From positions 1 through 64,000 of the IMG/VR virus record IMGVR_UViG_3300005253_001115: DNA of 64,000 bases. One strand, written 5' to 3'. The notes beneath the pieces were generated by a model. It was not told the origin of the DNA, ran no database searches, and saw only the letters and a program-made list of their open reading frames with translations. The DNA is from a virus. Position numbers and translations under genes: made by a program. Positions 5,071-52,170 of this stretch are shown here, piece after piece (positions within the stretch are counted from its first letter, which is position 1; each line of letters opens with the position of its first letter).

Positions 5071-5145
5071 TGCGGCGTAGTTCAATGGCAGAACAGGGTC
5101 CTCATAAGGCTCATGTCGGTGGTTCGATTCCACCCGTCGCAACCA
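5071..5145 (+). tRNA. tRNA-Met(CAT), elongator type
   Basis: Acceptor TGCGGCG/CGTCGCA, anticodon loop CTCATAA, T-arm GGTGG-TTCGATT-CCACC, encoded CCA. Position 1 is paired, unlike the initiator at 13019. Confidence 0.9.
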
Positions 5146-5158
5146 TTTAGAGGCTTAA

Positions 5159-5551
5159 ATGCACGTAAATGAAATTGGGGCTTTGGCCGAGATCAAAGTA
5201 GCTGCTAGGCTCATGGAGCAGGGGTACATAGTATCTAAGCCTGTTTTTGGTGATGCTCGCTACGACTTGCTGGCAGACAACGGAAGCATACATCGAGTAC
5301 AGTGTAAAAACGGACGTTTACGTAATGGCGTGGTAAAATTCAAGACTAGAAGCCACTGCGCGTTCACAGGCGCGGACAGTCCGTACACTTCGGACGAGAT
5401 CGAATTTTTTGGGGTCTACTGCCCTGAACTGGAAACTGTTTACCTCGTGCCTGTAGGCGACGTTCCTCAGGATAAAGGACATCTTAGAGTGGAGCCCACC
5501 AAAAATGGGCAGGTAAAAGGAATAACGCTAGCAGCTTCGTATCTGCTATAG
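5159..5551 (+). CDS. PD-(D/E)XK endonuclease, homing/resolvase-like
   Basis: 130 residues. GALAEIKVAARLMEQGYIVSK is the leading helix; GDARYDLLADNGS gives the Asp and HRVQCKNG the Q-x-K of a PD-(D/E)XK nuclease, all within the first 60 residues. Related small enzymes include archaeal resolvases and the tRNA-intron homing enzyme I-Ssp6803I. The place right after tRNA-Met and before a tRNA cluster suggests a free-standing tRNA-targeting endonuclease. Expressed from AGAGG upstream of ATG. Confidence 0.65.
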   Translation: MHVNEIGALAEIKVAARLMEQGYIVSKPVFGDARYDLLADNGSIHRVQCKNGRLRNGVVKFKTRSHCAFTGADSPYTSDEIEFFGVYCPELETVYLVPVGDVPQDKGHLRVEPTKNGQVKGITLAASYLL

Positions 5552-5564
5552 GAAAAGGATATTT

Positions 5565-5640
5565 GGGGGCGTAGCTCATTTGGGAGAGCACCTGTTTTGC
5601 AATCAGGAGGTAGTCGGTTCGATCCCGACCGTTTCCACCA
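5565..5640 (+). tRNA. tRNA-Ala(TGC)
   Basis: Anticodon arm CCTGT-TTTGCAA-TCAGG, T-arm GTCGG-TTCGATC-CCGAC, encoded CCA; acceptor has three GU pairs. First of a run of seven tRNAs with 4-25 base spacers. Confidence 0.9.
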
Positions 5641-5646
5641 CATAAT

Positions 5647-5722
5647 GCACCATTAGCTCATTTGGAAGAGCGTCAGATTTCCAATCTGAAGGCGGTCGGA
5701 TCGTAGCCGACATGGTGCTCCA
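5647..5722 (+). tRNA. tRNA-Gly(TCC)
   Basis: Anticodon arm TCAGA-TTTCCAA-TCTGA and acceptor GCACCAT/ATGGTGC, CCA encoded. The T-loop is ATCGTAG rather than TTCGTAG. Confidence 0.88.
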
Positions 5723-5727
5723 TATAA

Positions 5728-5803
<76 letters not shown>

Positions 5804-5807
5804 CTTT

Positions 5808-5883
5808 GGTCCCATAGTTTATCGGTTAGAACACCGGGTTCTCAACCCGGAAAGGGAGGGTTCGATTCCCCCTGGGACTACCA
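5808..5883 (+). tRNA. tRNA-Glu(CTC)
   Basis: Anticodon arm CCGGG-TTCTCAA-CCCGG, acceptor GGTCCCA/TGGGACT, CCA encoded. Paralogue of tRNA-Glu(TTC) at 8737. Confidence 0.9.
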
Positions 5884-5905
5884 TTTAGGAATGAAAGGAA
5901 CATAT

Positions 5906-5982
5906 TGGGGTGTGGCTTACCGGTAAAAGCGCCGAGCTGATATCTCGGAGACAGGCGGGTTCGACTCCCCCGACCCCAACCA
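5906..5982 (+). tRNA. tRNA-Ile(GAT)
   Basis: Anticodon arm CCGAG-CTGATAT-CTCGG, D-loop with GG, encoded CCA. One mismatch each in the T-stem and acceptor stem. Confidence 0.85.
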
Positions 5983-5986
5983 ATTT

Positions 5987-6061
5987 GCCTCTATAGTTCA
6001 ATGGCTAGAATTGCTGTTTTGTACTCAGCGGATCTCAGTTCGATTCTGAGTAGGGGCTCCA
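5987..6061 (+). tRNA. tRNA-Thr(TGT)
   Basis: Acceptor GCCTCTA/TAGGGGC, anticodon loop TTTGTAC in a stem with one T-T mismatch, T-arm CTCAG-TTCGATT-CTGAG, CCA encoded. Confidence 0.85.
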
Positions 6062-6066
6062 CATAT

Positions 6067-6143
6067 ACGGCTGTAGCATAACCGGAGAATGCCCCGCCCT
6101 GCGAAGGCGGAGATTGTAGGTTCGAATCCTATCAGCCGTGCCA
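6067..6143 (+). tRNA. tRNA-Arg(GCG)
   Basis: Acceptor ACGGCTG/CAGCCGT, anticodon arm CCGCC-CTGCGAA-GGCGG, CCA encoded. Confidence 0.9.
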
Positions 6144-6148
6144 CGTCG

Positions 6149-6178
6149 AACTGGAGATGCGGGTTGGATTCCCGCCAG
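6149..6178 (+). other. tRNA minihelix-like relic
   Basis: AACTG pairs with CAGTT around a complete T-arm GCGGG-TTGGATT-CCCGC. There is no D-arm or anticodon arm in between, so only the acceptor/T half of a tRNA is present. Most likely a tRNA 3' remnant; a functional mimic cannot be excluded. Confidence 0.4.
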
Positions 6179-6211
6179 TTGCGCGATTGCGGACTGTAGC
6201 ATAAATGACAA

Positions 6212-6230
6212 GAACCGCGACAGGCGGTTC
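6212..6230 (+). repeat. GACAG hairpin, copy C
   Basis: Seven pairs, GAACCGC-GACAG-GCGGTTC, the longest stem in the family. It is followed by a second small hairpin (GTGA/TCAC) and then tRNA-Trp. Confidence 0.7.
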
Positions 6231-6254
6231 GTGAGTGCGCCGTTCACTTTACAT

Positions 6255-6321
6255 AGGGCGGGATCTGGGATCAGCAGAGCCTCCAAAACTCAGCAGCGGG
6301 GTTCGATTCCTCGTCGCCCTG
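6255..6321 (+). tRNA. tRNA-Trp(CCA), reduced
   Basis: Acceptor AGGGCGG/TCGCCCT and T-arm CGGGG-TTCGATT-CCTCG are good. The anticodon loop CTCCAAA reads Trp, but its stem has two mismatches, and the D-arm is only GATC-TGG-GATC. At 67 bases with no CCA it is short, perhaps degenerate. Confidence 0.55.
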
Positions 6322-6354
6322 CGACTTTACTAAAGGAAAGAATGGAGAAGAGAC

Positions 6355-6912
6355 ATGAGTGGCAGCATCCTAGACAAGCGGTGGTTGACCCTGCACAAGG
6401 TTGAGGTAGAGGACATTTGCGTCTCTATTGCCGATCTGAACGCTGGGGAAAATCGCCCGGTCCACATCGGAACCGATGCGCAGAAGCACGGCAAGTTCTT
6501 GGATTTCGTCACGGCTGTGGTTGTGCTCGACCCCGGAAAGGGCGGACGTGTGTTCTACTGCAAGACGCGCGAGAAGCACATCAACAGCTTGCAGCACAAG
6601 CTCTTCACGGAGGTTGGCTTGAGCCTGGAGATTGCTCAGGCGCTTTGTGAGCATATCGACGCAGACCAGATTCAGGTTCACGTCGATGCGAACACCAACC
6701 TCAAGTGGGACTCCGGTAAGTATCACCAGCAGCTAGCGGGCATGGTTGTAGGTAGTGGCTTCAAGGCTGTCCTCAAGCCAGACGCCTGGGCAGCCTCGCA
6801 CGTTGCTGACCATGCTGTAAACGGCAAGAACGAGTCCTCGTCAACACGCCGCAGGAATAAGAAGGCCAGCAAGAGGGCAGGAAAGGCCGGTAAGAAGAGG
6901 TCGAAGAAGTAA
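6355..6912 (+). CDS. YkuK-like RNase H-fold protein (DUF458)
   Basis: 185 residues. HIGTDAQKHG near residue 36, GRVFYCKTREKH near 65, QVHVDANTNLKWDSGKYHQQ near 103 and KPDAWAASHVADHAVNG near 140 follow the RNase H-like YkuK family, with the expected Asp residues. A Lys/Arg-rich tail of about 30 residues ends the protein and may bind RNA or DNA. It lies among tRNA genes, so an RNA substrate is possible but unproven. Confidence 0.7.
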   Translation: MSGSILDKRWLTLHKVEVEDICVSIADLNAGENRPVHIGTDAQKHGKFLDFVTAVVVLDPGKGGRVFYCKTREKHINSLQHKLFTEVGLSLEIAQALCEHIDADQIQVHVDANTNLKWDSGKYHQQLAGMVVGSGFKAVLKPDAWAASHVADHAVNGKNESSSTRRRNKKASKRAGKAGKKRSKK

Positions 6913-6921
6913 ATGAGTTTT

Positions 6922-6998
6922 GCCGCCGTAGCTCAATTGGATAGAGCATTCGGTTTCGACCCGAAAGGCTGGGGGTTCAAGTCCCTTCGGCGGTGCCA
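6922..6998 (+). tRNA. tRNA-Arg(TCG)
   Basis: Anticodon arm TTCGG-TTTCGAC-CCGAA, acceptor GCCGCCG/CGGCGGT, CCA encoded. The last A of CCA (6998) is the first base of the ATG of the next CDS. Confidence 0.9.
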
Positions 6999-7441
6999 TG
7001 AAATATCCTGAGAAAGGAGACAAGTTTTGGTTCGTCCATGCCGGTTACCCGATAATTATCAGGGTGACCGTTATGGACAGCCATCATGGGGAAGTGGACA
7101 TTGACGAACCTGTCGGATTTGACTTAGAGTACACCGACCTGTACACTACGCTTGAAGAGGCAGCAGATGTTTTCTATAGAGACATGGAAGAGGCCAAGCT
7201 GCTCTGGGACGAGGACTTTCCAGGCCAGGGTCAGGTAGAGTTCGAGGAAGACTACACACTAGAGAAATATCGCGAAGACGTTGGTTACACCCTTCGAGTC
7301 TACGATGAGGAAGACGGGAAACAGCATACCCCACAGGGCTGGCCGGACAAGAGCGAGGACGAATGGTTCTCGTTGCGGGAAGTTCGAGAAATCCGAGGGA
7401 CGGACAGATCAGCGTTTGAGGAACTATACGGGGGCAGTTAG
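6998..7441 (+). CDS. hypothetical protein between two tRNAs
   Basis: 147 residues, acidic, family not recognised; starts MKYPEKGDKFWFVHAG. The ATG shares a base with the CCA of tRNA-Arg(TCG), and the stop codon lies in the acceptor stem of tRNA-Val(GAC). There is no room for an SD outside the tRNA, so tRNA processing must compete with translation of this gene. An internal ATG is possible but none has an SD. Confidence 0.6.
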   Translation: MKYPEKGDKFWFVHAGYPIIIRVTVMDSHHGEVDIDEPVGFDLEYTDLYTTLEEAADVFYRDMEEAKLLWDEDFPGQGQVEFEEDYTLEKYREDVGYTLRVYDEEDGKQHTPQGWPDKSEDEWFSLREVREIRGTDRSAFEELYGGS

Positions 7442-7509
7442 CTCAGTCAGGCCAGAGCGCCGCCTTGACATGGCGGAGGTCACAGGTTCAAGTCCTGTAC
7501 TGCCCACCA
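7432..7509 (+). tRNA. tRNA-Val(GAC)
   Basis: Anticodon arm CCGCC-TTGACAT-GGCGG, acceptor GGGCAGT/ACTGCCC, CCA encoded. Overlaps the preceding CDS by 10 bases. Confidence 0.9.
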
Positions 7510-7524
7510 AATTTGGAGATTGCT

Positions 7525-7821
7525 GTGAACTTGCTGGATTGGATGCGCAAACGAAAGAGCACGCTCGGAGAGGCTAGCGGGGAACGAGTAAATGAGTCTA
7601 TCGGCAACCACGACAGGTTGTTGGCAGGGTTACCGCCGCAGAGGAAGGCGTGGCTGATTGACACGGATGGTCAGAAACACTACCACGATATAGACATTCG
7701 AGACAACACACCGAGCCAAGAGGTCCGAGTAAGGCTACACAAGATAGACGCAGACATCGAGGAGAAGGTTTACGAGTACGACAAAGAAGTAGACGGCTGG
7801 CTGATTTACTATCAGGTTTGA
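7525..7821 (+). CDS. hypothetical protein
   Basis: About 98 residues from GTG at 7525, which follows TTTGGAG by 7 bases; upstream in-frame codons lie in the tRNA. Charged, no recognised domain. The stop ends at 7821 and tRNA-Arg(TCT) starts at 7822. Confidence 0.6.
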   Translation: MNLLDWMRKRKSTLGEASGERVNESIGNHDRLLAGLPPQRKAWLIDTDGQKHYHDIDIRDNTPSQEVRVRLHKIDADIEEKVYEYDKEVDGWLIYYQV

Positions 7822-7898
7822 GGCCCCTTAGCTCAACTGGACAGAGCAACGGTTTTCTACACCGTAGGTTGAGGGTTCGAATCCTTCAGGGGCTACCA
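7822..7898 (+). tRNA. tRNA-Arg(TCT)
   Basis: Anticodon arm ACGGT-TTTCTAC-ACCGT, acceptor GGCCCCT/AGGGGCT, CCA encoded. Confidence 0.9.
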
Positions 7899-7912
7899 AT
7901 TTGGAGATGTTG

Positions 7913-8101
7913 ATGTTAGACATACAAGCAGTACGACAGATTAACGGGGACTTGAGAATAGACGATGGGGACGAGGGGCCTCTTCTGACAATTCAATTTT
8001 TCGCGGAGTTTGCGAGCGGGTTTTCGAACGAGGATAAGGATCAAGTTTTGGAGGTGGTGGTCGATAAGCTCGTGGAGCTTCTAGCAGATCGCGATGAGTG
8101 A
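7913..8101 (+). CDS. small acidic protein
   Basis: 62 residues from ATG 7913, 6 bases after TTTGGAG. Acidic, with a C-terminal amphipathic helix (LEVVVDKLVELLADRDE). It overlaps the next gene by 8 bases. No family recognised. Confidence 0.5.
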   Translation: MLDIQAVRQINGDLRIDDGDEGPLLTIQFFAEFASGFSNEDKDQVLEVVVDKLVELLADRDE

Positions 8102-8609
8102 ATACGGTCGGTACATGGAAGCTAACCTTCTCATCGAGAAGAATGACGGTTCTGACTGGACAGACGCGGAAGTAGAAGATCTGGTAGAAAAGCTGGTTTA
8201 CGACAATATGGAACACGGACTTATGGTTGGCGGTGGCATACAGCCCATGAGGACCAGAAAAGACGAATGTGACTATTGCGAGGACCCGGGACATAAAGAC
8301 ATCAGCGAAGAAGAACGTTGTGAAACGTGCGGTGGATCAGGCCGCAAACACGAGGAAGAACCAACTTCTGACCCTGAGGCAGAGCAAGAGTGGAAAGACA
8401 TATACGCTCCTATAGCTCAACGGACAGAGCAGTCCCCCCCTAAGGGAAAGGCTGAAGGTTCGAATCCTTCTAGGAGCGCCAATGTTCGGAACAGATGTGA
8501 TCGAGAAAGCGATGGAGAACCTGGGGACCAAGGTGGCCAAGGCGACAATAGCGGGGTTCGAGATTGGTGCGAAGATCCTGGGCGAGACCATAGCGGCGAA
8601 AATGGATGA
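8094..8609 (+). CDS. DnaJ-type zinc-ribbon protein, runs into tRNA
   Basis: The first 100 or so residues look real, with CDYCEDPGH and CETCGGSG making a DnaJ-like zinc centre near residues 61-85. No stop occurs before tRNA-Arg(CCT), so the frame continues through the tRNA and into the next gene. The end given is formal; the original C-terminus was probably lost when the tRNA landed here. Confidence 0.4.
   Translation: MSEYGRYMEANLLIEKNDGSDWTDAEVEDLVEKLVYDNMEHGLMVGGGIQPMRTRKDECDYCEDPGHKDISEEERCETCGGSGRKHEEEPTSDPEAEQEWKDIYAPIAQRTEQSPPKGKAEGSNPSRSANVRNRCDRESDGEPGDQGGQGDNSGVRDWCEDPGRDHSGENG
8406..8481 (+). tRNA. tRNA-Arg(CCT) with C33
   Basis: Acceptor GCTCCTA/TAGGAGC, D-stem GCTC/GAGC, CCA encoded. 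Loop CCCCTAA gives anticodon CCT with C, not U, at position 33. The next CDS begins on the base after CCA. Confidence 0.75.
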
Positions 8610-8679
8610 GCTGCACGAGAGAGAACAGCTCGCTCATCGTCAGGAAGAGGAACGGGAAGCGCACAGGCACAGTCCTTAG
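8482..8679 (+). CDS. small helical protein
   Basis: 65 residues starting MFGTDVIEKAMENLG; a hydrophobic Ala/Gly-rich first half and a Glu/Arg/His coiled-coil tail. The ATG directly follows the CCA of a tRNA, so no free SD exists. Function unknown. Confidence 0.5.
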   Translation: MFGTDVIEKAMENLGTKVAKATIAGFEIGAKILGETIAAKMDELHEREQLAHRQEEEREAHRHSP

Positions 8680-8736
8680 GAAGAAATGTACCCTTAAAGC
8701 AGCAGAAAGGCGCTTAAAGGGCGATTAAAGCACCAG

Positions 8737-8811
8737 GGTCCCATAGTTTACTGGCTAGAATTCCGGGTTTTCACCCCGGGGAAGGGGGATCGAAACCCCC
8801 TGGGATCACCA
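8737..8811 (+). tRNA. tRNA-Glu(TTC)
   Basis: Anticodon arm CCGGG-TTTTCAC-CCCGG, acceptor GGTCCCA/TGGGATC, CCA encoded. Confidence 0.9.
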
Positions 8812-8824
8812 TTTATGCGAATAT

Positions 8825-8904
8825 AGGGTCGTATCCCCTCCGTCTTATAAGCGGTAGAAAGGGTAACTGGTTACATGTGGGTTCAAGTCCCACCGGCCCC
8901 ACCA
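8825..8904 (+). tRNA. aberrant tRNA, possible Ile(TAT)
   Basis: T-arm GTGGG-TTCAAGT-CCCAC, acceptor GGGTCG/CGGCCC and CCA are normal. There is no normal D-arm: a CCGT-CTTATAA-GCGG arm (anticodon TAT by U33) comes early, then a D-loop-like GCGGTAGAAAGG, then GTAAC-TG-GTTAC. It is either a type II tRNA with a lost D-arm, or rearranged. Confidence 0.4.
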
Positions 8905-8931
8905 TTATCCCTTCCTTAGGGGAAGTTTTAC

Positions 8932-9007
8932 ACCGGTGTAACTCAGTGGCCAGAGTGCCTCTTTTACACGGAGGAAGTCGTCGGTTCAACTCCGGCCACC
9001 GGTACCA
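8932..9007 (+). tRNA. tRNA-Val(TAC)
   Basis: Acceptor ACCGGTG/CACCGGT, anticodon arm CCTCT-TTTACAC-GGAGG, CCA encoded. Confidence 0.9.
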
Positions 9008-9012
9008 TATAC

Positions 9013-9087
9013 GCGGGTATAGCTCAGTGGTAGAGCATCTTGTTGCCAACGAGAAGGCCGGGGGTTCGAGCCCCCCTACCCGCTCCA
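9013..9087 (+). tRNA. tRNA-Gly(GCC)
   Basis: Acceptor GCGGGTA/TACCCGC, anticodon arm TCTTG-TTGCCAA-CGAGA, CCA encoded. Confidence 0.9.
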
Positions 9088-9092
9088 AACAC

Positions 9093-9168
9093 GCCCGTTT
9101 GGTGATAACGGTTAGCATTAGCCCCTGGTATGGGCTAGGAAAGGGTTCGACTCCCTTAACGGGCTCCA
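9093..9168 (+). tRNA. tRNA-Thr(GGT)
   Basis: Acceptor GCCCGTT/AACGGGC, anticodon arm AGCCC-CTGGTAT-GGGCT, CCA encoded. Confidence 0.9.
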
Positions 9169-9272
9169 TTTTGTTTTGACCGTTACCAGAAGAAGCGGCG
9201 AACGGGAAGGTAAAACAGAAAGGAGGATACATGTTTATCACAATCTAGCCCGTAATGGGCCAGGAGGATAGC

Positions 9273-9554
9273 ATGTATCGACGAGAGAGAGATCTGGCGC
9301 ACACGTTGTGGGCGCAAAGACGCTTTGCTACAGTGCGGTCTTGGGGGTGGTGGGGAGACGTTTTTCCCGATCTTGGAGAGTGGGCGTCCCAGAGTGGCCG
9401 CTTTCGTAAAGAAACTAGGCTTGGGTGCCCGAACGGTCGTAGTAAGTGCGGAGTGTGCAGCGGAGGGGTTCGAGAACCTACTCGCCAGGAAGTCCGCTCA
9501 AATATTGACTTTGAAGAATACCGAAAGGAGGTAGACATGTCAGCGTTTCAATAG
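9273..9554 (+). CDS. small conserved-type Cys protein
   Basis: 93 residues from ATG 9273 after AGGAGGATAGC. RFRKETRLGCPNGRSKCGVCSGG has a CxNGRxxCGxC metal-binding look, followed by PTRQEVRSNIDFEEYRKE. I have the impression of a widespread small phage/bacterial family but cannot name it. Confidence 0.6.
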   Translation: MYRRERDLAHTLWAQRRFATVRSWGWWGDVFPDLGEWASQSGRFRKETRLGCPNGRSKCGVCSGGVREPTRQEVRSNIDFEEYRKEVDMSAFQ

Positions 9555-9569
9555 TAAGGAGAAACTGAC

Positions 9570-10163
9570 ATGTATGTTATCGAACCCGCTCTCTGTCGAG
9601 AGCAGGAAATCTATCTGTATTGCTGTGGGAGACTTTCCCGCACTTTCTACGGCCTTCATCACTTGTGTGAGGAATTGTCCGTTGACTTTATCGAGAAGTG
9701 GGTAGGCGAACATTACGGCGAACAGATTAAGATCGTCACCAAGAGGGCTCACGGGCTCCATTGGCCCAAAGACAGGGCAAAGTGGGAGTACCAATTCCCC
9801 GAAGAGTTCTACATCGAACCTGCGATGTACATTGTTCGAACGGATGAAGGAGAGAAACTCACTTCCGATTTCTTGAAGAAGGCGTGCAGCCTATTCTATT
9901 ACAATCGTCGTTACGCTCGCCGGGACTATTACAAGCCCCGGATGGGCCGGAAGACTCAGTGGTGCTACGGAAATTACCGAGCACCCAAGATCACTAACGA
10001 GAAGCGTCAGGCTTTCTGCATCAAGGAAGATGGCGAACCTCCGATTCGCGCTCGTCGAAACATTACCAATTTGACGGACGCCTGGGACGACACTAGCAGA
10101 CACAACGATGCGTGCTGGAAGACCCAGTACAAGAAGAGGAAGAGACAGTATCGACCTAAGTAG
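9570..10163 (+). CDS. hypothetical protein
   Basis: 197 residues, rich in Tyr, Trp and Arg, with a basic tail (KTQYKKRKRQYRPK). Family not recognised. AAGGAG is 8 bases before the ATG. The aromatic/basic make-up suits nucleic acid binding, which is inference only. Confidence 0.6.
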   Translation: MYVIEPALCREQEIYLYCCGRLSRTFYGLHHLCEELSVDFIEKWVGEHYGEQIKIVTKRAHGLHWPKDRAKWEYQFPEEFYIEPAMYIVRTDEGEKLTSDFLKKACSLFYYNRRYARRDYYKPRMGRKTQWCYGNYRAPKITNEKRQAFCIKEDGEPPIRARRNITNLTDAWDDTSRHNDACWKTQYKKRKRQYRPK

Positions 10164-10164
10164 T

Positions 10165-10247
10165 ACGCAGGTCCAGTATGGTACGTTCCCGGGGATTCCG
10201 GTTCGAGTCCGGTAATGGTTCAGGGCACTCTAGAATGTCCACTGCGT
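10165..10247 (+). other. tRNA-like folded segment
   Basis: ACGCAG (10165) pairs with CTGCGT near 10246. Inside are a D-loop-like AGTATGGTA, a T-arm TCCGG-TTCGAGT-CCGGT, and then GGGCA-CTCTAGAA-TGTCC, an anticodon-like arm whose loop contains CTA. The order (T-arm before the anticodon-like arm) is not that of a normal tRNA. Confidence 0.35.
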
Positions 10248-10252
10248 CAAAT

Positions 10253-10327
10253 GCTGCCATAGCTTAACAGGTAAAGTACGCCACTCGTAATGGCGCGTTC
10301 GGGGTTCGAGTCCTCGTGGCAGCTCCA
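10253..10327 (+). tRNA. tRNA-Thr(CGT)
   Basis: Acceptor GCTGCCA/TGGCAGC, anticodon arm CGCCA-CTCGTAA-TGGCG, CCA encoded. Third threonine tRNA in the window. Confidence 0.9.
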
Positions 10328-13259: not shown

Positions 13260-13276
13260 GGTCGCGACAGGCGACC
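13260..13276 (+). repeat. GACAG hairpin, copy E
   Basis: GGTCGC-GACAG-GCGACC. The outer pairs differ from other copies but still pair (compensatory change). Confidence 0.65.
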
Positions 13277-13306
13277 GCGGTAATAACGATATTATGACCC
13301 AACAAT

Positions 13307-13356
13307 ACCCGCCAAGCCTCTCTACGATGCTCAAACCGGCGGGTTTTTGTTTTTTC
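13307..13356 (+). terminator. intrinsic terminator
   Basis: ACCCGCC (13307) pairs with GGCGGGT (13338), followed by TTTTTGTTTTTT. Ends the tRNA transcript before the next protein gene. Confidence 0.75.
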
Positions 13357-13374
13357 CTGTGTTATTTCAACCAC

Positions 13375-13542
13375 ATGGACGATAAAGAGATCGAGATTGC
13401 CATTGACCAGTGGATTCGTGAGGTAGATTCTGCTAACCTAGAGCCTGAGGAGCTTGCTCTCTCTTTCCAGGCTCTCTGCACGGAGTTCGACATTCCTGAA
13501 GACCTTGGAAAGAAATTTGTTGCTTCAGCACTAGAAGACTAA
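13375..13542 (+). CDS. small acidic protein
   Basis: 55 residues from ATG 13375; the longer frame overlaps the terminator. MDDKEIEIAIDQWIREVDSA suggests helices. No SD is visible. The stop TAA is the first part of a TAAAGTTC promoter-like box. Confidence 0.45.
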   Translation: MDDKEIEIAIDQWIREVDSANLEPEELALSFQALCTEFDIPEDLGKKFVASALED

Positions 13543-14125: not shown

Positions 14126-14328
14126 TCGAAGTAGAGGGCTCCGTGGAGAAGATCCTCGGTGGCGGAATCTACGACGTTTCGGTGGACGGGTCTACTAGAC
14201 ATGTCATGGCCAAGCTGAGCGGTCGCCTACGCCAGTATCGAATCCGGGTCCTCCCCGGAGACAAGGTACGACTCGAAGTCTCGGAAGCCGACACTACAAA
14301 AGGCTTCATCGTTTACAGAATTGGCTAA
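14107..14328 (+). CDS. infA: translation initiation factor IF-1
   Basis: 73 residues, the normal IF-1 length (about 72). IEVEGSVEKIL, HVMAKLSGRLRQYRIRVLPGDKV and the closing GFIVYRIG follow bacterial IF-1, an OB-fold protein that binds the 30S A site and helps IF-2/IF-3 select the initiator tRNA. The GKMR/FIRI RNA-binding stretch is GRLRQYRIRVLPGD here. It starts within the end of the previous gene. With the phage initiator tRNA at 13019 this points to control of initiation. Confidence 0.85.
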   Translation: MARNGMIEVEGSVEKILGGGIYDVSVDGSTRHVMAKLSGRLRQYRIRVLPGDKVRLEVSEADTTKGFIVYRIG

Positions 14329-20151: not shown

Positions 20152-20165
20152 GTTCTTTGCTCCCG

Positions 20166-20238
20166 GCCCTTATAACTCAATTGGCAGAGTGCCGGGCCTG
20201 AAGCCCGGATGTTGCAGGTTCGAGTCCTGCTAAGGGCC
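20166..20238 (+). tRNA. tRNA, loop CCTGAAG (TGA or GAA)
   Basis: All stems are perfect: acceptor GCCCTTA/TAAGGGC, D-stem ACTC/GAGT, anticodon stem CCGGG/CCCGG, T-arm GCAGG-TTCGAGT-CCTGC. By position the anticodon is TGA (Ser) with C33, but the variable loop is short, unlike Ser. A GAA (Phe) reading needs a shifted loop. Confidence 0.65.
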
Positions 20239-20247
20239 ACAGAGAGT

Positions 20248-20283: not shown

Positions 20284-20360
20284 CAGGGTGTAGTTCAGTC
20301 TGGAAGAATCCTCCCCTCGGAAGGGAGAGGTCGTTGGTTCAAATCCAACCACCCTGACCA
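20284..20360 (+). tRNA. tRNA-Pro(CGG)
   Basis: Acceptor CAGGGTG/CACCCTG, anticodon arm CTCCC-CTCGGAA-GGGAG, CCA encoded. Confidence 0.9.
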
Positions 20361-20380
20361 TTTGATTACGAAAGGATAAA

Positions 20381-20652
20381 CAGACGGGCGGACAATCGCT
20401 CCAAGGAGAGGAAAGTCGGGACTGCACGGTACAGCCTAGAGGGTAACACCCTTCCACCGTGAGGTGCGTGACGGCAACAGAGACGAGCCTATTTGGTTAG
20501 GTTGAAACGGGCGACAGCGTGGGCGCAGCAACCGAAAGCAGGGGACATTGATCGTACCAGAGAGTCCCCGGGTATCGGGCAAAGATTCTAGTGGTAACAC
20601 TAGAGCAAGACGAATGATTGTCGATAACAGAATCCCGCTTATAGCCCATCTG
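20381..20652 (+). ncRNA. rnpB: RNase P RNA, compact
   Basis: 272 bases. Universal blocks are present: GAGGAAAGTCGGGA (20408), GGCAACAGAGA, and GATAACAGAATCCCGCTTATAG near the 3' end. P4 forms as AAG-T-CGGGA (20413) with TCCCG-CTT (20633): eight pairs around the universal bulged U, with both strands changed together relative to E. coli. P2 is GACAATC/GATTGTC (20391/20616). P1 is CAGACGGGC/GCCCATCTG with one mismatch. P3 is almost absent. It cuts 5' leaders from pre-tRNA, with a host protein subunit presumably. No open frame crosses it. Confidence 0.93.
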
Positions 20653-20670
20653 CAATTTTAGGAGAAGAAC

Positions 20671-21114: not shown

Positions 21115-21191
21115 TGGGAACTAGCTCAACTGGCTAGAGCGTCGGTCTCTGACACCGAAGGTTCTGGGTTCGAACCCCAGGTTCCCAACCA
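21115..21191 (+). tRNA. tRNA-Gln(CTG)
   Basis: Acceptor TGGGAAC/GTTCCCA, anticodon arm TCGGT-CTCTGAC-ACCGA, CCA encoded. Confidence 0.9.
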
Positions 21192-21199
21192 TACATTAT

Positions 21200-21275
21200 G
21201 GACCCCTAGCTCAACAGGTAGAGCGGCTGTCTCTTAAACAGCAGGTTCAGGGTTCGAGTCCCTGGGGGTTCACCA
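21200..21275 (+). tRNA. tRNA-Lys(CTT)
   Basis: Acceptor GGACCCC/GGGGTTC, anticodon arm GCTGT-CTCTTAA-ACAGC, CCA encoded. Confidence 0.9.
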
Positions 21276-21280
21276 TATAT

Positions 21281-21324
21281 CCGGGTGTAGCGCAGTCTGG
21301 TAGCGCGCCTGCTTTGGGAGCAGG
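21281..21324 (+). pseudogene. 5' half of tRNA-Pro(TGG)
   Basis: Acceptor 5' strand, D-arm GCGCAGTCTGGTAGCGC and anticodon arm CCTGC-TTTGGGA-GCAGG are present; the T-arm and 3' acceptor are missing. Sequence then continues into an HNH fragment. An intact tRNA-Pro(TGG) follows at 21422. Confidence 0.75.
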
Positions 21325-21326
21325 AT

Positions 21327-21419
21327 TTGGGTGGCACTACTTGCCCAGAAAACTTACAGCCTTTGTGCCTTAATTGCCATAGAGACAAAACGGTACAGGA
21401 GTCGAAAAATAGAAAATGA
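21327..21419 (+). pseudogene. HNH endonuclease C-terminal fragment
   Basis: The frame ending in TGA 21417 reads TTCPENLQPLCLNCHRDKTV, the typical end of an HNH motif. No N-terminal part exists. It sits exactly between the broken and intact tRNA-Pro genes. Confidence 0.65.
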
Positions 21420-21421
21420 TT

Positions 21422-21496
21422 CGGGGTATGGCGCAGAGGCAGCGCGCCGCGTTTGGGACGCGGAGGTCGAGATTTCGAAATTCTCTACCCCGACCA
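21422..21496 (+). tRNA. tRNA-Pro(TGG)
   Basis: Acceptor CGGGGTA/TACCCCG, D-stem GCGC/GCGC, anticodon arm CCGCG-TTTGGGA-CGCGG, CCA encoded. Confidence 0.88.
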
Positions 21497-21503
21497 TACA
21501 TAA

Positions 21504-21591
21504 GGACCGGTAGCAAAATTGGCTGAATGCAGCGGACTTTTAACCCGCAGGAGAAATCCCACTGTGAGTTCGAATCTCACCCGGTTCACCA
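21504..21591 (+). tRNA. tRNA-Lys(TTT)-like with extra-arm hairpin
   Basis: Acceptor GGACCGG/CCGGTTC, anticodon loop CTTTTAA in stem GCGG/CCGC, T-arm GTGAG-TTCGAAT-CTCAC, CCA encoded. The variable region is 15 bases with a GGA-GAAA-TCC hairpin, a type II feature not normal for Lys; Leu identity cannot be excluded. Confidence 0.7.
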
Positions 21592-21597
21592 TATTAA

Positions 21598-21685
21598 GGA
21601 AGAGTGGCAGATAGGAATCGCGCCCGGTTGCTAACCGGAGGCCGGGGGCAACCCCGAGTGGGATCGTTACCCACCTCTTCCGCCA
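21598..21685 (+). tRNA. tRNA-Ser(GCT)
   Basis: Acceptor GGAAGAG/CTCTTCC, loop TTGCTAA, long variable arm with GGGG/CCCC, CCA encoded. T-loop ATCGTTA is unusual. Confidence 0.85.
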
Positions 21686-21692
21686 TACATAT

Positions 21693-21767
21693 TGGGGTGT
21701 CATCCAACGGCTAGGATACCGCTCTTTGAAAGCGAGGATAAAGGTTCGACTCCTTTCACCCCATCCA
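21693..21767 (+). tRNA. tRNA-Gln(TTG)
   Basis: Acceptor TGGGGTG/CACCCCA, anticodon loop CTTTGAA, CCA encoded. Confidence 0.87.
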
Positions 21768-21770
21768 TTT

Positions 21771-21856
21771 AGAAGGTACCGTGCAGGGCACAAACTGGGC
21801 TTGAACCCCAGGGCATCGCGAGAGCGGTGGGAGATCGTTACTTCTACCTTCTGCCA
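21771..21856 (+). tRNA. tRNA-Ser(TGA)
   Basis: Acceptor AGAAGGT/ACCTTCT, anticodon arm CTGGG-CTTGAAC-CCCAG, long variable arm, CCA encoded. Its last 18 bases are in a 20-base repeat also found at 21954. Confidence 0.85.
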
Positions 21857-21858
21857 TA
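21839..21858 (+). repeat. 20-base direct repeat, copy 1
   Basis: 3' end of tRNA-Ser(TGA); exact match to 21954-21973. Confidence 0.85.
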
Positions 21859-21864
21859 CAGCCA

Positions 21865-21952
21865 GGAAGAGTGACAGAGCGGCTATTGTGCCTGTTTCGA
21901 AAACAGTGGCCTGGGCGAGAGCCCAGCGGGGGTTCGAGTCCTCCCTCTTCCG
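21865..21952 (+). tRNA. tRNA-Ser(CGA)
   Basis: Acceptor GGAAGAG/CTCTTCC, loop TTCGAAA, long variable arm with TGGGC/GCCCA, T-arm GGGGG-TTCGAGT-CCTCC. No CCA encoded (G then GTA). Confidence 0.85.
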
Positions 21953-27877: not shown

Positions 27878-28046
27878 CCGAAACTGTGCGGTCCGAGAGA
27901 GAATCGGAGACGGCGTTTCAGTTGGGCGCTGCTGGATTTACACAGACGAGGCTGAGGGTACTCTGACGTGCCCCAGACACGGAGATGTAACAAGTATTCA
28001 GAAGCGCTTCAGCGAGACTGGGGAGCTTGGAGAAGACCCGAGATGA
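27870..28046 (+). CDS. 58-residue zinc-like protein
   Basis: MNDRNCAVRERIGDGVSVGR..., later TLTCPRHGDVTSI. AAGGAGAACACG precedes the ATG. It ends in an ATGA overlap with rtcB, so its translation probably feeds rtcB. Confidence 0.5.
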   Translation: MNDRNCAVRERIGDGVSVGRCWIYTDEAEGTLTCPRHGDVTSIQKRFSETGELGEDPR

Positions 28047-29272
28047 GTGACTACGACGTATTTCAGGGTGGCGTGCCGATCAAGGCATGGACGAAGGGCG
28101 TGCCGATTGAGTCGGCGGCTCTCGATCAGTTGAAGAATGTGGCGGCTCTGCCGTTCATTCACAAGTGGGTAGCAGTGATGCCGGACGTTCACTTCGGGCG
28201 TGGTGCTACCGTTGGCTCGGTCATTCCGACCAAGGGGGCTATCATTCCGGCGGCTGTCGGTGTGGACATTGGTTGCGGCATGGTCGCCGTGCGAACGGGA
28301 CTCGTGTCTCACGACCTTCCGACCAACTTGAAGAAGTGGCGTCTAGCTATCGAAGAGGCTGTGCCGCACGGCGCAGTCAAGGGTGCTTCCCACGATCGTG
28401 GCGGATTCTCTCCGGGCGCTCTTCCGAAGACGAACTCTCGTCTGTGGCAGAACAAGTTGGCGAATCGTTACGCTACCATTATGGGAAAGCACAAGTCGGT
28501 TGCTCACAAGGCTGGTCCACACCAGCTTGGTACGCTTGGGGGCGGTAACCACTTCATCGAGATTTGCCTGGATGAGGCGGATCGCGTGTGGCTGATGCTG
28601 CACTCGGGTAGCCGTGGCCTTGGCAACAAGATCGGAATGTACTTCACCGATCTGGCAAAGAAGGAGATGAAGATTCACTTCGTGAACTTGCCGGACAAGG
28701 ATCTTGCATATCTGCCGGAGGGTACGCAGCACTTCGATGACTACATCGAGGCGATGACGTGGGCGCAGGACTTTGCTCAGTTCAACCGCGACCTTATGGT
28801 TCTTCAGGTGTTCGATGCCTTGAAGCGCGAGGGCGGAGTTCCGCAGAAGAAGCTCTTGACTCACGATGTGGCAGTCAATTGCCATCACAATTACAGCGCT
28901 CGCGAGAACCACTACGGACAGAACGTGTGGCTCACTCGTAAGGGAGCAGTGTGCGCGCGCAAGGGCGTCATGGGAATCATCCCGGGTTCGATGGGTACCA
29001 AGTCCTTCATTGTAGAGGGCAAGGGTAACCCGGAGAGCTTTGACTCGTGCTCGCACGGGGCTGGTCGCATCATGAGCCGCTCGAAGGCAAAGAAGACGTT
29101 CACGCTGGACGACCACATCAAGGCAACGGAGGGGGTCGAGTGTCGCAAGGACGAAGGAGTCATTGATGAGACGCCGGGAGCTTATAAGGATATCGACGCT
29201 GTTATGGCAGCGCAGGCATCTTTGGTGGACATCAAGCATACGCTTCGTCAGGTGCTCTGTGTCAAGGGCTAA
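28043..29272 (+). CDS. rtcB: RNA-splicing ligase RtcB
   Basis: 409 residues from ATG 28043. MPDVHFGRGATVGSVIPTKG, then VGVDIGCGMVAVRTG (Mn-binding Asp/Cys), GTLGGGNHFIEICLDE, LMLHSGSRGLGN, HDVAVNCHHNYS and the guanylylation His in SCSHGAGRIMSRSKA are all present. RtcB joins 3'-phosphate or 2',3'-cyclic phosphate to 5'-OH ends. Length is typical of the shorter bacterial forms. In this tRNA-rich phage it could mend tRNAs cut by host anticodon nucleases or join split tRNA halves. Confidence 0.95.
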   Translation: MSDYDVFQGGVPIKAWTKGVPIESAALDQLKNVAALPFIHKWVAVMPDVHFGRGATVGSVIPTKGAIIPAAVGVDIGCGMVAVRTGLVSHDLPTNLKKWRLAIEEAVPHGAVKGASHDRGGFSPGALPKTNSRLWQNKLANRYATIMGKHKSVAHKAGPHQLGTLGGGNHFIEICLDEADRVWLMLHSGSRGLGNKIGMYFTDLAKKEMKIHFVNLPDKDLAYLPEGTQHFDDYIEAMTWAQDFAQFNRDLMVLQVFDALKREGGVPQKKLLTHDVAVNCHHNYSARENHYGQNVWLTRKGAVCARKGVMGIIPGSMGTKSFIVEGKGNPESFDSCSHGAGRIMSRSKAKKTFTLDDHIKATEGVECRKDEGVIDETPGAYKDIDAVMAAQASLVDIKHTLRQVLCVKG

Positions 29273-47196: not shown

Positions 47197-47826
47197 ATGC
47201 CCAGACCCAAAAGGACGCCGAAGGACAAAGACGCAGCCTCGGAGGCTCTACTGGACAACCTCACGAAAAAGGGTCAGGTCAAGGAAGAGCGTGACGAAGC
47301 TAACGATGACCCGTTTCTAGACCAAGACGGTGACATGCGTGTAGTCCCAACAAATGCGGATCTGTCGGGTCTGGTTTCGGACGAAGCCTCTATTAACTCT
47401 CTCCCGTTCAAAGAAATTCTCCGAAGAAATCTACAGGTTACACTGCGCGCCACCGAAATGGCCGAACTTGCTTACCACGCCAATCCTCGGCAGGGTACTG
47501 CTACAGCCCTAACCTCGATGCAGAATTTGGCAACGGATCTCATCAAGGCCATCGAGGAGCGTCAAGATCCTATGGACTTGGCTTCTGAGGTTGAGGAAGC
47601 TGTTATCCAGCCCATGATTGCAGAGTTCATCAAGATTCTAACGTCCGAGGCTGAGCGCAAGCGTTCCGCTTTGATGGCTATTACACCCGCCGAGAATGCT
47701 GGTGTCGTTTCACACGAGATGCGGGATCTTCTGGCAGGCATCAGAGGTGGTATGGACGAAGCATACGATGATGGTCGCCGAAAGCTAGAAGACCTCCTGT
47801 GCTCCAAGATCAAGAAGACTAAGTAA
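47197..47826 (+). CDS. putative terminase small-subunit-position protein
   Basis: 209 residues, basic start (MPRPKRTPKDKD) then helices. It ends one base into the large terminase gene (TAATG), the usual place of the small subunit, but no HTH is clear. Assignment by position only. Confidence 0.4.
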   Translation: MPRPKRTPKDKDAASEALLDNLTKKGQVKEERDEANDDPFLDQDGDMRVVPTNADLSGLVSDEASINSLPFKEILRRNLQVTLRATEMAELAYHANPRQGTATALTSMQNLATDLIKAIEERQDPMDLASEVEEAVIQPMIAEFIKILTSEAERKRSALMAITPAENAGVVSHEMRDLLAGIRGGMDEAYDDGRRKLEDLLCSKIKKTK

Positions 47827-49820
47827 TGGCGAAGGCTGCGGCAGAACAATGGTCACCGTCAAGTATGGTGGATGCGGCCCTGGCTTCTGACCTTGACCCT
47901 GGAATTTTCTCTACCATTGATGAGGGAGATGTACCCAAGTCTGGGAACTTTCTTGACTTCTGCATTAACAAGAAGTTCCTTAACGTACTGCCCTACCCCA
48001 GACAGGTCGAAGTGGGACTAATGTTCTTCGAGGAATATTGTCCCGACTGCTCGAACCCTGCTTGGCTTTTTGGTGACGAACGGGATCTAGATCTGTTCGA
48101 CCAACCAATGGGAGAGATCCTAGAAAACATCAAATTGCTTGAGTTTGGCGTGTGCCCTAAATGCGGGCAGAATCGTAATGACTTCGTAAAGAAGGGATAC
48201 TTCCATAACCCATACGAACTGGCTGGATGCGCTGGACAGCGTTCCGGCAAGTCCGCAGTTATCGCCATGATTGCTGCCTATGTCCTTCATAGGTATTTGT
48301 GCATTCCTGATCCTATTCGCACCTTAGGTCTGCTGTCGTCCTCTCAGCTATACATGAGTATGACCGCCATTTCCGCCGGTCAGGCCGAAGCGTCCTTGTG
48401 GACTCCCTTCAAGGAATACGTCGATCAGGCTCCTTGGTTTGTGGAGTACCACAAGCTTCTAGCTGATACAGGAGAGCGTCTAGGGACGGAACTACTACAT
48501 CGACCTAGAACATTCCTCGTGTACCAACACAAGCGCATCGCTTGTATGTACGAAGCACCTAATAAGCGTCGTCTTCGTGGTAAGACTCGTTTCTTCACTG
48601 CAATTGATGAGATCGGATGGATGGAGGCGGATGCCGCCAAGCAGTCTGTAACTATGTCTGCTGACGAAATTTCCGCTTCTCTAGACAACTCTTTGCGAAC
48701 CGTCCGATCTATGGTCGAGACCCTGCGCGAAAAGCGTAATCTCTTCAACCTACCAGACGGCTACGCCTGCAACATCTCCAGCCCCTCCGACAAGAACGAC
48801 CGTATCATGCGGTCTGTGCGTTCCGCTCGCACCAATCGGAAGATCTACGCTTACCATTACCCGACCTGGGAAGCAAACCCATTCATTTCCCGTGCCAGCC
48901 TACAGCCCGAGTACGACAAGAGCAAGATGGTGGCCGAACGAGATTTCGGTGCCGTACCCCCGTTGGCAAATGATCCGTTCATTGACAACCCGAATTGCGT
49001 CGATCTTATGATCGTGCCGGATCACAAGCACAATCTGATTCAAGTCAAGATGGCATATAACACGGACGACTTTGGCAACAAGACGAAGTACGCCTCCGTG
49101 AAGGTCCCACACATCGACAAGCGAAAGCCTAGAATGCTTCTCGTGGATGCTGGAGAGAAGCGTAATCACTTTGCCGTTATGCTTATGACCTGGGACACGA
49201 AGATGAACCGTGCCCGAGTCGATTACGTTTTCGATGTTCCGCCGGAGGAGGGTATTCCGATCAATTTCGCTTTGATGTGGGAGCACTGCTTCCTACCGCT
49301 GGTACAGGGCTTGCTCATCAAGCACATGTTCTCGGATACATGGAACAGCACGGACTTGGTACAGAAGCTCCGACAGCACAAGGTAATGTCAGAGCAATAC
49401 ACTTTGAAATTCATGGACTTAATAGAGATAGCTGCACGTCTAAGCTCCGGCGAGCTGATGCTACCGAAGCCCGAGCTTCCCGTAGAGGATCTGAGGCTGA
49501 CCTACGAGAATCCGACCGAGTTCGTAGACGGGAAGCCCATTCTTGGTCTGATTTTACAGATGTTGACGGTTAGGCAGGTAGGACGACGGGTCGTAAAGCC
49601 AGTAAATGGCGAAGATGATATGTTCCGAGCCTTGGCTTTGGGCATGTATCACATCATCCGACCGGAGATCAAGAGGATCTACGCTGTGGATGCCGCAGGC
49701 GGGGCTGGTGGCAATCTGGGGGTTATCTCTAGTAGGAGTGCGGGGTCTGCCGGAATTGACCCAAGAAAACGCACATCAGGCGCTATTTTAGCGACAAAGC
49801 GCGGTTATCGCAACCGATAG
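47826..49820 (+). CDS. terminase large subunit
   Basis: 664 residues. CAGQRSGKSAVIAMIAAY (Walker A) near 142, KTRFFTAIDEIGWM (Walker B) near 257, and nuclease-domain RMLLVDAGEKRNHFAVMLMTW with later Asp residues. A zinc-like CPDCSNPAWL/CPKCGQN pair sits before the ATPase. Packages DNA into the prohead. Confidence 0.9.
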   Translation: MAKAAAEQWSPSSMVDAALASDLDPGIFSTIDEGDVPKSGNFLDFCINKKFLNVLPYPRQVEVGLMFFEEYCPDCSNPAWLFGDERDLDLFDQPMGEILENIKLLEFGVCPKCGQNRNDFVKKGYFHNPYELAGCAGQRSGKSAVIAMIAAYVLHRYLCIPDPIRTLGLLSSSQLYMSMTAISAGQAEASLWTPFKEYVDQAPWFVEYHKLLADTGERLGTELLHRPRTFLVYQHKRIACMYEAPNKRRLRGKTRFFTAIDEIGWMEADAAKQSVTMSADEISASLDNSLRTVRSMVETLREKRNLFNLPDGYACNISSPSDKNDRIMRSVRSARTNRKIYAYHYPTWEANPFISRASLQPEYDKSKMVAERDFGAVPPLANDPFIDNPNCVDLMIVPDHKHNLIQVKMAYNTDDFGNKTKYASVKVPHIDKRKPRMLLVDAGEKRNHFAVMLMTWDTKMNRARVDYVFDVPPEEGIPINFALMWEHCFLPLVQGLLIKHMFSDTWNSTDLVQKLRQHKVMSEQYTLKFMDLIEIAARLSSGELMLPKPELPVEDLRLTYENPTEFVDGKPILGLILQMLTVRQVGRRVVKPVNGEDDMFRALALGMYHIIRPEIKRIYAVDAAGGAGGNLGVISSRSAGSAGIDPRKRTSGAILATKRGYRNR

Positions 49821-50145: not shown

Positions 50146-52170
50146 ATGAAGTTTCATTTTGGACAAGGACGCGCCCGGACACCCCACGGAAGCCCCGGGG
50201 GGCGTATTGGCAAGACCAGGACTGCAACTGCTGGTGTTAGTAGTGGTAGTGGCATTGGTCCCGGCAGCGGTGGTGGTGGCGGAGGTTCAGGCTTCGGCGG
50301 AGGCGGAAACTATGATGTTTCTCGCTTCAATCCTGTCCACGACAATCTAGAAATTGGATCGGTAATTGAAGATTGGATGCCCCGAGACCAAACTGGTCTC
50401 AACCAGATGTGGCGTCTGATTTATTTGCGCGACGCAATTGTTGGTCCGGCAGTCGATCTCTACTCCAACCTGCCGTACTCTGAGTGCAGGTTGACGGGTA
50501 TTGACGATCCGGCTATCATGCGCGTCTATCAGGATACCATGGAGCGCCTGGACATCGTAACGATGATGCCAGAGCTGGTCCGTGAATTCCTCATGATTGG
50601 GCGATTCTGCTCATCCCTCATCTTCGACCGGCGTCAGGGCGTGTTCACGGACTGGACCACCCACGACCCGGACTTCCTGCGCATCGAGCCCATCCCTGTT
50701 CGTGGCTTCGACCCCAAGATTGACCTTGTAGCGTCTCCGGCGCTAAAGAACTTTCTCCATTCTATGGACCCACGGGACATGGCGGTAAGAGACAACCTCC
50801 CGCTTGAGTTCTTCGATGAGTTCGAGAAGACGGGGACCTACAAGCTGAATCCTCTGAACACCTTGTTTGTGCCACGGCGCGCGAACCCCTACGATTACGT
50901 CGGTACGTCGTTCTTGACCCGTATCGTTAGTTTTTGGGCATTGGAGAAGTCTCTCATCGAGAGCACAGTAACCAATGCCCGACGCCGCACACGTTCTATC
51001 CTTCACGTCACAGCGGGCCTTGACAACATGTGGGAGCCCACAGAAGACGAGTTGGAGGCTATATCCGGTCTATTTATCCAGGCTGACGAGGACCCGGTAG
51101 GCGCTGTTGTAACCACCCGCACAGGTGTCGAGACTAACGAGGTCAAGGCGGGTATGGACTTCTGGAAACTCTCCGATGAGTGGGCCTTTCTTACAGAGGG
51201 CAAGATGCGCGCCCTCGGTATCTCGGACGCCTTTCTTAGTGGTGACGCGACCTACAATAACATGGAGACCGCCCTGTCGGTGTTTATGGAGTCTCTACGG
51301 ACCCTGCGAGCCTACATGGACCGTCGCGTCTTCTACGAGAAGGTCTTTGCCACTATCGCCCGTGTTCACGGATTCATCAAGCCCGATGCCAGAAGTCGCC
51401 ATCTCCGAGGCCCACGTATTGGTCAGACGCTAGAGTACAAGAACGCTATCAAGATCCCCCGCGAAGACCTTCTCATGCCAAAGATCGTCTGGGACAAGAA
51501 GCTCCAGCCCGAAGGCGATATGAACTTCCTTGAGATGCTTCAGTCAGCCGATGACGCTGGCGTTCCGGTCACGTTGAAGCAGTGGGCCTCTGGTGCCGGT
51601 CTCAACCTAGAAGAGATGATGGAAGAGTTGGAAGAGGACTCTCGCTACCGCAAGATGACAGCGGAGTGGCGCAAGCAGTTCACGGGAGACCAAGCCCTAG
51701 AGCAGGAAGTGATGTCCAGCCTTGGACTCCGCTCGATCCCTGTGTGGGACGATCAGCACAACTTTCTGATATTGTCCTCTGACGAGGCCCTAGACGTTAT
51801 TGAGCACTTCACAAAGAGCCGACGTAATCTAGCCAAGCTCCGCAGTCCCGACGAAACCATGCGCACAATTAGTAGCCTGTTGGACGGAAATTCTATGAAG
51901 ACTGAGCTTATGGGTTATCTTCTAAGGCGGCTAGGAATCGGTAAAGCCCTCCCTATGGAGGACAATACCTACGAGGCTATTTCCGAGCACCTGTTCAAGA
52001 TTGGTACACAAACGGAGAGCGGCAAAAAGAAGAAGGCGGTACACGCTGAGTTCGAGACATTGGCGAAGATGATGACACCTCAGTTTTCCGACGGAGAGAA
52101 GAGCAAGCTTCTCGCCACGGCGACTAGGGATGTCTCACCGTTCTCTGCAAGTTCCGTGACGGGGAGTTAA
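50146..52170 (+). CDS. portal protein
   Basis: 674 residues. After a Gly-rich N-terminal tail (GSGIGPGSGGGGGGSG) comes the portal body: WRLIYLRDAIVGPAVDLYSN, FEKTGTYKLNPLNTLFVPRR, and long helices. Order terminase-portal-protease and size support the call. Forms the dodecameric DNA channel. Confidence 0.85.
   Translation: MKFHFGQGRARTPHGSPGGRIGKTRTATAGVSSGSGIGPGSGGGGGGSGFGGGGNYDVSRFNPVHDNLEIGSVIEDWMPRDQTGLNQMWRLIYLRDAIVGPAVDLYSNLPYSECRLTGIDDPAIMRVYQDTMERLDIVTMMPELVREFLMIGRFCSSLIFDRRQGVFTDWTTHDPDFLRIEPIPVRGFDPKIDLVASPALKNFLHSMDPRDMAVRDNLPLEFFDEFEKTGTYKLNPLNTLFVPRRANPYDYVGTSFLTRIVSFWALEKSLIESTVTNARRRTRSILHVTAGLDNMWEPTEDELEAISGLFIQADEDPVGAVVTTRTGVETNEVKAGMDFWKLSDEWAFLTEGKMRALGISDAFLSGDATYNNMETALSVFMESLRTLRAYMDRRVFYEKVFATIARVHGFIKPDARSRHLRGPRIGQTLEYKNAIKIPREDLLMPKIVWDKKLQPEGDMNFLEMLQSADDAGVPVTLKQWASGAGLNLEEMMEELEEDSRYRKMTAEWRKQFTGDQALEQEVMSSLGLRSIPVWDDQHNFLILSSDEALDVIEHFTKSRRNLAKLRSPDETMRTISSLLDGNSMKTELMGYLLRRLGIGKALPMEDNTYEAISEHLFKIGTQTESGKKKKAVHAEFETLAKMMTPQFSDGEKSKLLATATRDVSPFSASSVTGS

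Follow-up and report, generated by a model that had tools for sequence, protein, structure and literature searches.

The window analysed here, a stretch of 64,000 nucleotides (positions 1 to 64,000 of IMG/VR virus record IMGVR_UViG_3300005253_001115), contains a single RNase P RNA, which was identified by Rfam search on the plus strand amid tRNA genes (Table 1). The complete record of 266,640 bp could be assigned to a phage on the basis of a large terminase, a portal protein and a connector (PHROGs profiles); outside the window its genes were examined by profile search only. The Rfam tRNA model identified 34 tRNAs in the whole record, all within 73-24014 and all on the same strand, and ARAGORN identified 33, with CCA encoded in 30 of them. 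A preliminary description of the locus, made from the sequence alone, had counted about 38 tRNA loci, which is too many, and had stated that most phage tRNAs encode CCA, which is correct. A scan for sigma-70 promoters and terminators around the RNase P RNA gene gave no sites in excess of those in shuffled sequences.

Some other features of the window were observed. One tRNA (12392-12464, plus strand) has a short anticodon loop and an anticodon left unnamed by ARAGORN (two bases, ta). An abiF RNA is found at 13308-13344 on the plus strand (RF03085, 59 bits with a gathering threshold of 37), near two ORFs without Pfam match (13252-13539 and 13586-14122). A 73-residue ORF at 14107-14328 (plus strand) is IF-1-like (PF01176, E 1.5e-16), the ORF of the CCA-adding enzyme has about 570 residues outside recognised domains, and an ORF at 37812-38723 (minus strand) combines LAGLIDADG and helix-turn-helix domains, resembling a homing endonuclease, with a weak Terminase_5 match.

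Table 1. Features of the window around and within the RNase P RNA gene, in order of position (L066 is the related phage RNA described in the text).
Feature	Position	Strand	Evidence and remarks
Upstream tRNA cluster, 17 tRNAs	5071..10327	+	ARAGORN
tRNA-like gene, Ser(UGA)	20165..20240	+	ARAGORN; no CCA encoded at called end
tRNA-Pro(CGG), CCA encoded	20284..20360	+	20 nt upstream of RNase P RNA; same neighbour in L066
RNase P RNA, class A (almost certain)	20380..20657	+	RF00010 149.4 bits, E 4.1e-46; alignment
P1 5' strand	20381..20390	+	Partner strand 20642 and 20644-20652; one C.A mismatch
P2 5' strand GACAAUC	20391..20397	+	Perfect 7 bp with 20616-20622 GAUUGUC
P3, 3 bp, CAAG loop	20399..20408	+	Rfam alignment, pair check
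CR-I GAGGAAAGUC	20408..20425	+	Includes P4 5' strand 20413-20421 (bulged U20416) and P5 5' strand 20422-20425
P6 5' strand GGUAC	20428..20432	+	Pseudoknot partner GUACC 20554-20558, in P16 loop
P8 hairpin	20439..20453	+	Rfam alignment, pair check
P9 hairpin, GUGA (GNRA) tetraloop	20455..20466	+	Rfam alignment, pair check
Specificity domain ACAGAGACGA..UGAAACGGGC	20478..20520	+	4-bp P12 (20488-491/20498-501); no P13 or P14
P15 (CCGA/UCGG) 20532-535/20575-578 around P16 (GGGGAC/GUCCCC) 20541-546/20564-569	20532..20578	+	
P18 hairpin, GUAA (GNRA) tetraloop	20587..20604	+	Loop is GUGA in L066
CR-V ACAGAAUCCCGCUUA	20627..20641	+	Holds P4 3' strand 20633-20640
Downstream tRNA cluster, 8 tRNAs	21115..21952	+	ARAGORN; several spacers of 3-8 nt
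RtcB tRNA ligase	27968..29272	+	PF01139 E 2.6e-127; phrog_1075
CCA-adding enzyme / tRNA nucleotidyltransferase, ORF of 1036 aa	32092..35202	-	PF01743, PF12627; phrog_2244 E 4e-78
Large terminase	47826..49820	+	phrog_17415 E 1.4e-145
Portal protein	50146..52170	+	phrog_16240 E 1.2e-123

The RNase P RNA matches Rfam model RF00010 over its full length (model positions 1-367) with 149.4 bits against a gathering threshold of 100, and with E-values of 4.1e-46 in a search of the window and 4.5e-48 in a search of 700 bp. It is the only RF00010 match in the entire record. Its length is 272-278 nt, the outermost P1 pair being 20381-20652. The criteria for membership of class A comprised this covariance-model match, the P4 core, the P6 pseudoknot of J5/7 with the P16/17 arm (a hallmark of type A), a GGU in the P15 internal loop for the 3' CCA of tRNA, and the helices P13 and P14. 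The first is satisfied, as is the second, with eight P4 pairs, U20416 and both CR-I and CR-V; P4 cells are 100% paired in five phage RNAs (see below). The P6 criterion is met by 5 bp that covary, and the GGU criterion by J16/15. Only the criterion of P13 plus P14 is not fulfilled, since the Rfam alignment has 0 nt between GAAA and CGGGC. These helices are not obligatory for class A, as a motif without P13 and P14 is also found in bacteria (see also PMC8172020). The element is almost certainly a class A, bacterial-type RNase P RNA.

The anatomy of the RNA was read from the Rfam alignment, and each helix was also checked pair by pair. Helices P1-P5, P7-P12, P15, P16 and P18 are present, together with the P6 pseudoknot; P10/P11 are short, and P13, P14 and P17 are absent. 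P6 is missing both from the Rfam alignment and from the preliminary description; among five phage RNAs three of its five pairs show changes on both sides, and 92% of its cells are paired. The sequence of J16/15 is GGGUA (20570-574), and therefore a GGU (20571-573) for tRNA CCA is present, which fits the encoding of CCA in 30 of the 33 tRNAs. P4 is formed by CGGGA/UCCCG. Most structural claims of the preliminary description held: an RNase P RNA at 20381-20652, limits that coincide exactly with the outermost P1 pair; universal class A blocks at both ends (CR-I and CR-V); formation of P1 and P2, confirmed pair by pair; near-loss of P3, which has 3 bp; and a P4 in which both strands have changed together (CGGGA/TCCCG) with eight pairs and the bulged U kept. 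The check that it had proposed, a search with the RF00010 covariance model in which absence of a match would have been a refutation, was run and gave the full-length match well above gathering. Two of its structural claims failed. The hairpin GGGGAC/GTCCCC at 20541-20569, described as P15-type, is P16, enclosed by P15; and the GGU, said not to be obvious, is placed in J16/15 by the Rfam alignment, so that a missing GGU was rejected.

A close relative, L066, is the RNA of a 184-kb viral contig with a 91% identical TerL, and is likewise located after a tRNA-Pro(CGG). The two RNAs are identical at 245 of 278 positions (88%) and differ at 33. Eleven listed pairs have changed between them, including six double compensations, one repaired mismatch and one broken basal pair. 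At the P1 pair 20387-20646 the GC of the window RNA corresponds to AU in L066, the P1 mismatch 20385-20648 of the window RNA is repaired in L066, and the P12 pairs 20490-20499 and 20491-20498 are double-changed. When the same number of changes was placed at random 20,000 times (under a simple model that presupposes a transition bias), there were never more than four doubles and never as few as one broken pair. P6 is not included in this count and contributes two further double changes. As a separate observation, CR-V of L066 (L066:1501-1777) reads ACAUAA, with U replacing the near-universal G of ACAGAA.

The same analysis was extended to five phage RNAs, namely the window RNA, L066, L197 (from a 379-kb record), L020 and L195. 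Changes on both sides were found in 45 of 76 pairs, against 18.7 in shuffles and 4-11 with slid strands, and P18 shows them in all seven of its pairs. Paired cells amount to 92.8%, compared to 38-43% in the slid controls. Five RNAs of common descent make up a sample of modest size, and the window sequence itself served to draw the structure; however, the slid controls preserve relatedness and yet score far lower. The RNA therefore evolves under selection for the class A structure.

The altered P4 pair might have been taken as phage-specific, but this was rejected, as at least 119 bacterial genome stretches have an altered P4 pair at that place, 23 of them with GGGACU/UCCCG as in the window. 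What stands out in phages is the variety of P4, with CGGGA, CCAGA, CAGGA, CUCCG, CCCCG and CCAGC each accompanied by a matching 3' strand; in L195 the near-universal AAGU has also changed. The AAAGU of the P4 5' strand, otherwise near-universal, is altered in L195:1627-1930, L198:13508-13836, L202 and L205:5068-5413, and in L195 these changes are matched by 3' changes.

RNase P RNA is a recurrent gene of uncultured large phages, with dozens of cases in IMG/VR; its description as a rare gene for a phage was overstated. A pattern spanning CR-I...CR-V retrieved 59 stretches from IMG/VR, and a pattern of the P13/P14-less type brought further ones (the set was not de-duplicated and contains some prophage or host stretches). 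The covariance model confirmed an RNase P RNA in all 49 records searched, in 44 of them above the cut-off. At least three tRNAs surround the RNA at 48 of 65 viral loci, whereas as many were present in only two of 119 stretches examined in a bacterial control. The tRNAs at these loci are almost all on the strand of the RNase P RNA (765 of 767), and at 37 of the 48 loci a tRNA lies within 60 nt, in several cases 1-10 nt away on one side, although for most of the 65 loci the RNA ends are estimates from CR-I and CR-V. A terminase was found in 21 of 50 records bearing an RNase P RNA, using one profile alone. Three terminase matches (G028, G029 and G037) contain an in-frame TGA, TAG or TAA, for which stop reassignment, an intron or an error are possible explanations. 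Two phage tRNA arrays holding an RNase P RNA also contain a tmRNA (L004:376-694 and L204:10752-11100).

Cultured phages offer only distant TerL relatives (PaBG, NCTB and AD1, about 31-35% identical), and RF00010 has no match in these three jumbo phages. Of the blastn matches opened in a collection of cultured phages, two lie amid host genes and one belongs to a faecal clone without annotation; since blastn is not a covariance model, divergent cases in cultured phages could have been missed. Bacterial contamination, which explains the opened cultured-phage matches, was rejected for the present record on the basis of its phage terminase and portal and the arrangement in L066. A stretch of Microcystis phage MaAM05 (L191, MW495066.1) carries fliM, fabI and glyS together with an RNase P-like match and looks bacterial. 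Among bacteria, one genome of Terrisporobacter mayombei was observed to have two RF00010 matches (L085 and L132, 301 and 297 bits).

Concerning origin, a P13/P14-less motif, ACAGNGACGA-hairpin-UGAAACGGGC, was found in seven of 399 sampled Pseudomonadota genomes (L207-L213). A tree of 77 RNAs places the window RNA in a phage-only clade consisting of the five RNAs named above (support 99/98), which sits inside a larger group containing P13/P14-less Pseudomonadota RNAs. The phage label requires ten changes on the tree, at least five of them on well supported branches. The tree is limited by the short RNA, weak deep branches and a biased bacterial sample, most of which was picked for altered P4, and our conclusions are therefore confined to repeated capture and long phage carriage of the window lineage. 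Capture of such RNase P RNA genes by phages is likely to have happened repeatedly, and the window lineage is likely to have been phage-borne for a long time.

The RNase P protein (PF00825) was detected neither in the 266,640-bp record nor in 49 other records, while the same search was positive for 10 of the 14 genomes used as controls; a strongly diverged RNase P protein could have escaped detection, and the record may be incomplete. The RnpA partner is thus not found encoded alongside the RNA, and its supply by the host is a possibility.

We propose, as the likely explanation, that the RNA is the catalytic subunit of a phage RNase P that acts as a hybrid with host RnpA in processing phage tRNAs; its activity, expression and protein binding are inferred. 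In this view the gene would have been captured from a bacterium, probably one with RNA of the P13/P14-less type, and then inherited within the phage lineage. The RNA would be transcribed together with phage tRNAs and fold, host RnpA would bind it, and the hybrid holoenzyme would remove the 5' leaders of the phage tRNAs, with the GGU reading the mostly encoded CCA. Completion and repair of these tRNAs would fall to the CCA-adding enzyme and RtcB of the phage. Where the RNA of a relative is followed by a tRNA at a distance of 2-10 nt, cleavage at the latter may release the 3' end of the ribozyme as well. The location in the tRNA region, on the same strand and 20 nt after a tRNA, supports a processing role. 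The private tRNA maturation put forward in the preliminary description remains an inference, without cleavage data and without an encoded RNase P protein. Other points count against our explanation: a host with its own RNase P has no obvious need of a second RNA, leaving the advantage unexplained; compatibility with host RnpA cannot be judged, as the host is unknown; and L066 has replaced a near-universal G.

The alternative that survives best, albeit an unlikely one, is a ribozyme acting as RNA only, or with an unrecognised phage protein, independently of host RnpA and perhaps mainly in cis on the surrounding tRNA transcripts. It is favoured by the absence of a detectable RNase P protein gene in this and the other records, and by direct abutment on tRNAs at many loci. 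In vitro, high Mg2+ allows class A RNAs to act without protein. However, bacterial RNase P RNA requires its protein in cells, reduced RNAs without P13, P14 and P17 should need protein more, and no tRNA lies directly downstream in the window, the next one beginning at 21115. It is very improbable that the RNA is a decoy or dominant-negative molecule that sequesters the RnpA of the host or the substrates of host RNase P and so shuts down host tRNA maturation. This would explain the retention of an RNA-only gene without an encoded protein partner, but a decoy needs no active site, whereas the catalytic core, P4 with its bulged U, J5/15, J18/2 and the GGU are retained and the helices covary; moreover, the location in a tRNA array suits a processing role. 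There is even less to recommend a recently captured host rnpB carried as a passive passenger without phage function. Capture of host genes by phages does occur, and the state changes on well supported branches of the RNA tree indicate that exchange has recurred, but this reading is already contradicted by the covariation, and also by the supported phage-only clade, the compensatory divergence and the same place kept in L066. An assembly or binning artefact placing bacterial DNA in a viral record, which has a precedent in the RNase P matches beside bacterial genes in cultured-phage records, is practically ruled out by the flanking tRNAs, by the phage terminase, portal and connector on the same record, and by the independent 184-kb viral contig with the same arrangement.

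The hybrid enzyme of phage RNA and host protein, which we prefer, can be taken further, to a bolder reading that we can neither favour nor disfavour at present. Large phages would run RNase P lineages of their own, arising from several bacterial captures followed by diversification in phages; the hybrid enzyme would be specialised either for the tRNA transcripts of the phage or for infections during which the host's own RNase P RNA is lost or inhibited, and where genes are tightly arrayed the ribozyme would free itself through cleavage of the adjacent tRNAs. RNase P RNA is one of the ribozymes central to cellular life. If the hybrid-enzyme reading is true, phages take over tRNA maturation, beyond the supply of tRNAs, and offer, in their reduced and diversified RNase P RNAs, a large natural set in which compensatory changes extend even to P4 and which would be useful for the study of RNA-protein compatibility and of minimal ribozymes.

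No description of a phage-encoded RNase P RNA was found in the open-access literature searched, in which two papers on rnpB annotation are likewise silent about phages and viruses; as subscription papers and preprints were not covered, this absence is no proof of priority. Among known systems, RNase P RNAs of CPR bacteria not unusually lack P13, P14, P16 and P17, and loss of P12 is very rare, being known from Mycoplasma fermentans (PMC8172020); the GGU (UGG) motif is missing from many CPR RNAs (PMC8172020), whereas the phage RNA retains it together with a 4-bp P12. Mycobacteria may carry second or third rnpB copies, one with differences in the specificity domain, that are thought to be horizontally acquired (PMC9569102). 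Unlike the phage gene, these extra copies are on bacterial genomes, and a phage origin was traced for extra tmRNA copies but not for rnpB (PMC9569102). Phage tRNA arrays with tmRNA, as in L004 and L204, are alike in array setting but differ in RNA and function. With bacterial class A RNAs (RF00010) the phage RNA shares the full-length model, CR-I and CR-V, the bulged U of P4, the J16/15 GGU and the GNRA tetraloops on P9 and P18; it differs in its length of only 272-278 nt, in the absence of P13, P14 and P17, in a P3 of 3 bp, and in that no protein gene was found. The seven Pseudomonadota RNAs (L207-L213) share its specificity-domain motif and are tree neighbours of the window clade. They are nevertheless longer (328-391 nt by Rfam limits), have no tRNA in the approximately 3 kb examined around each RNA, and in six of the seven cases have GGAACG or GGAAGG in CR-I, where the phage RNA has GGAAAG.
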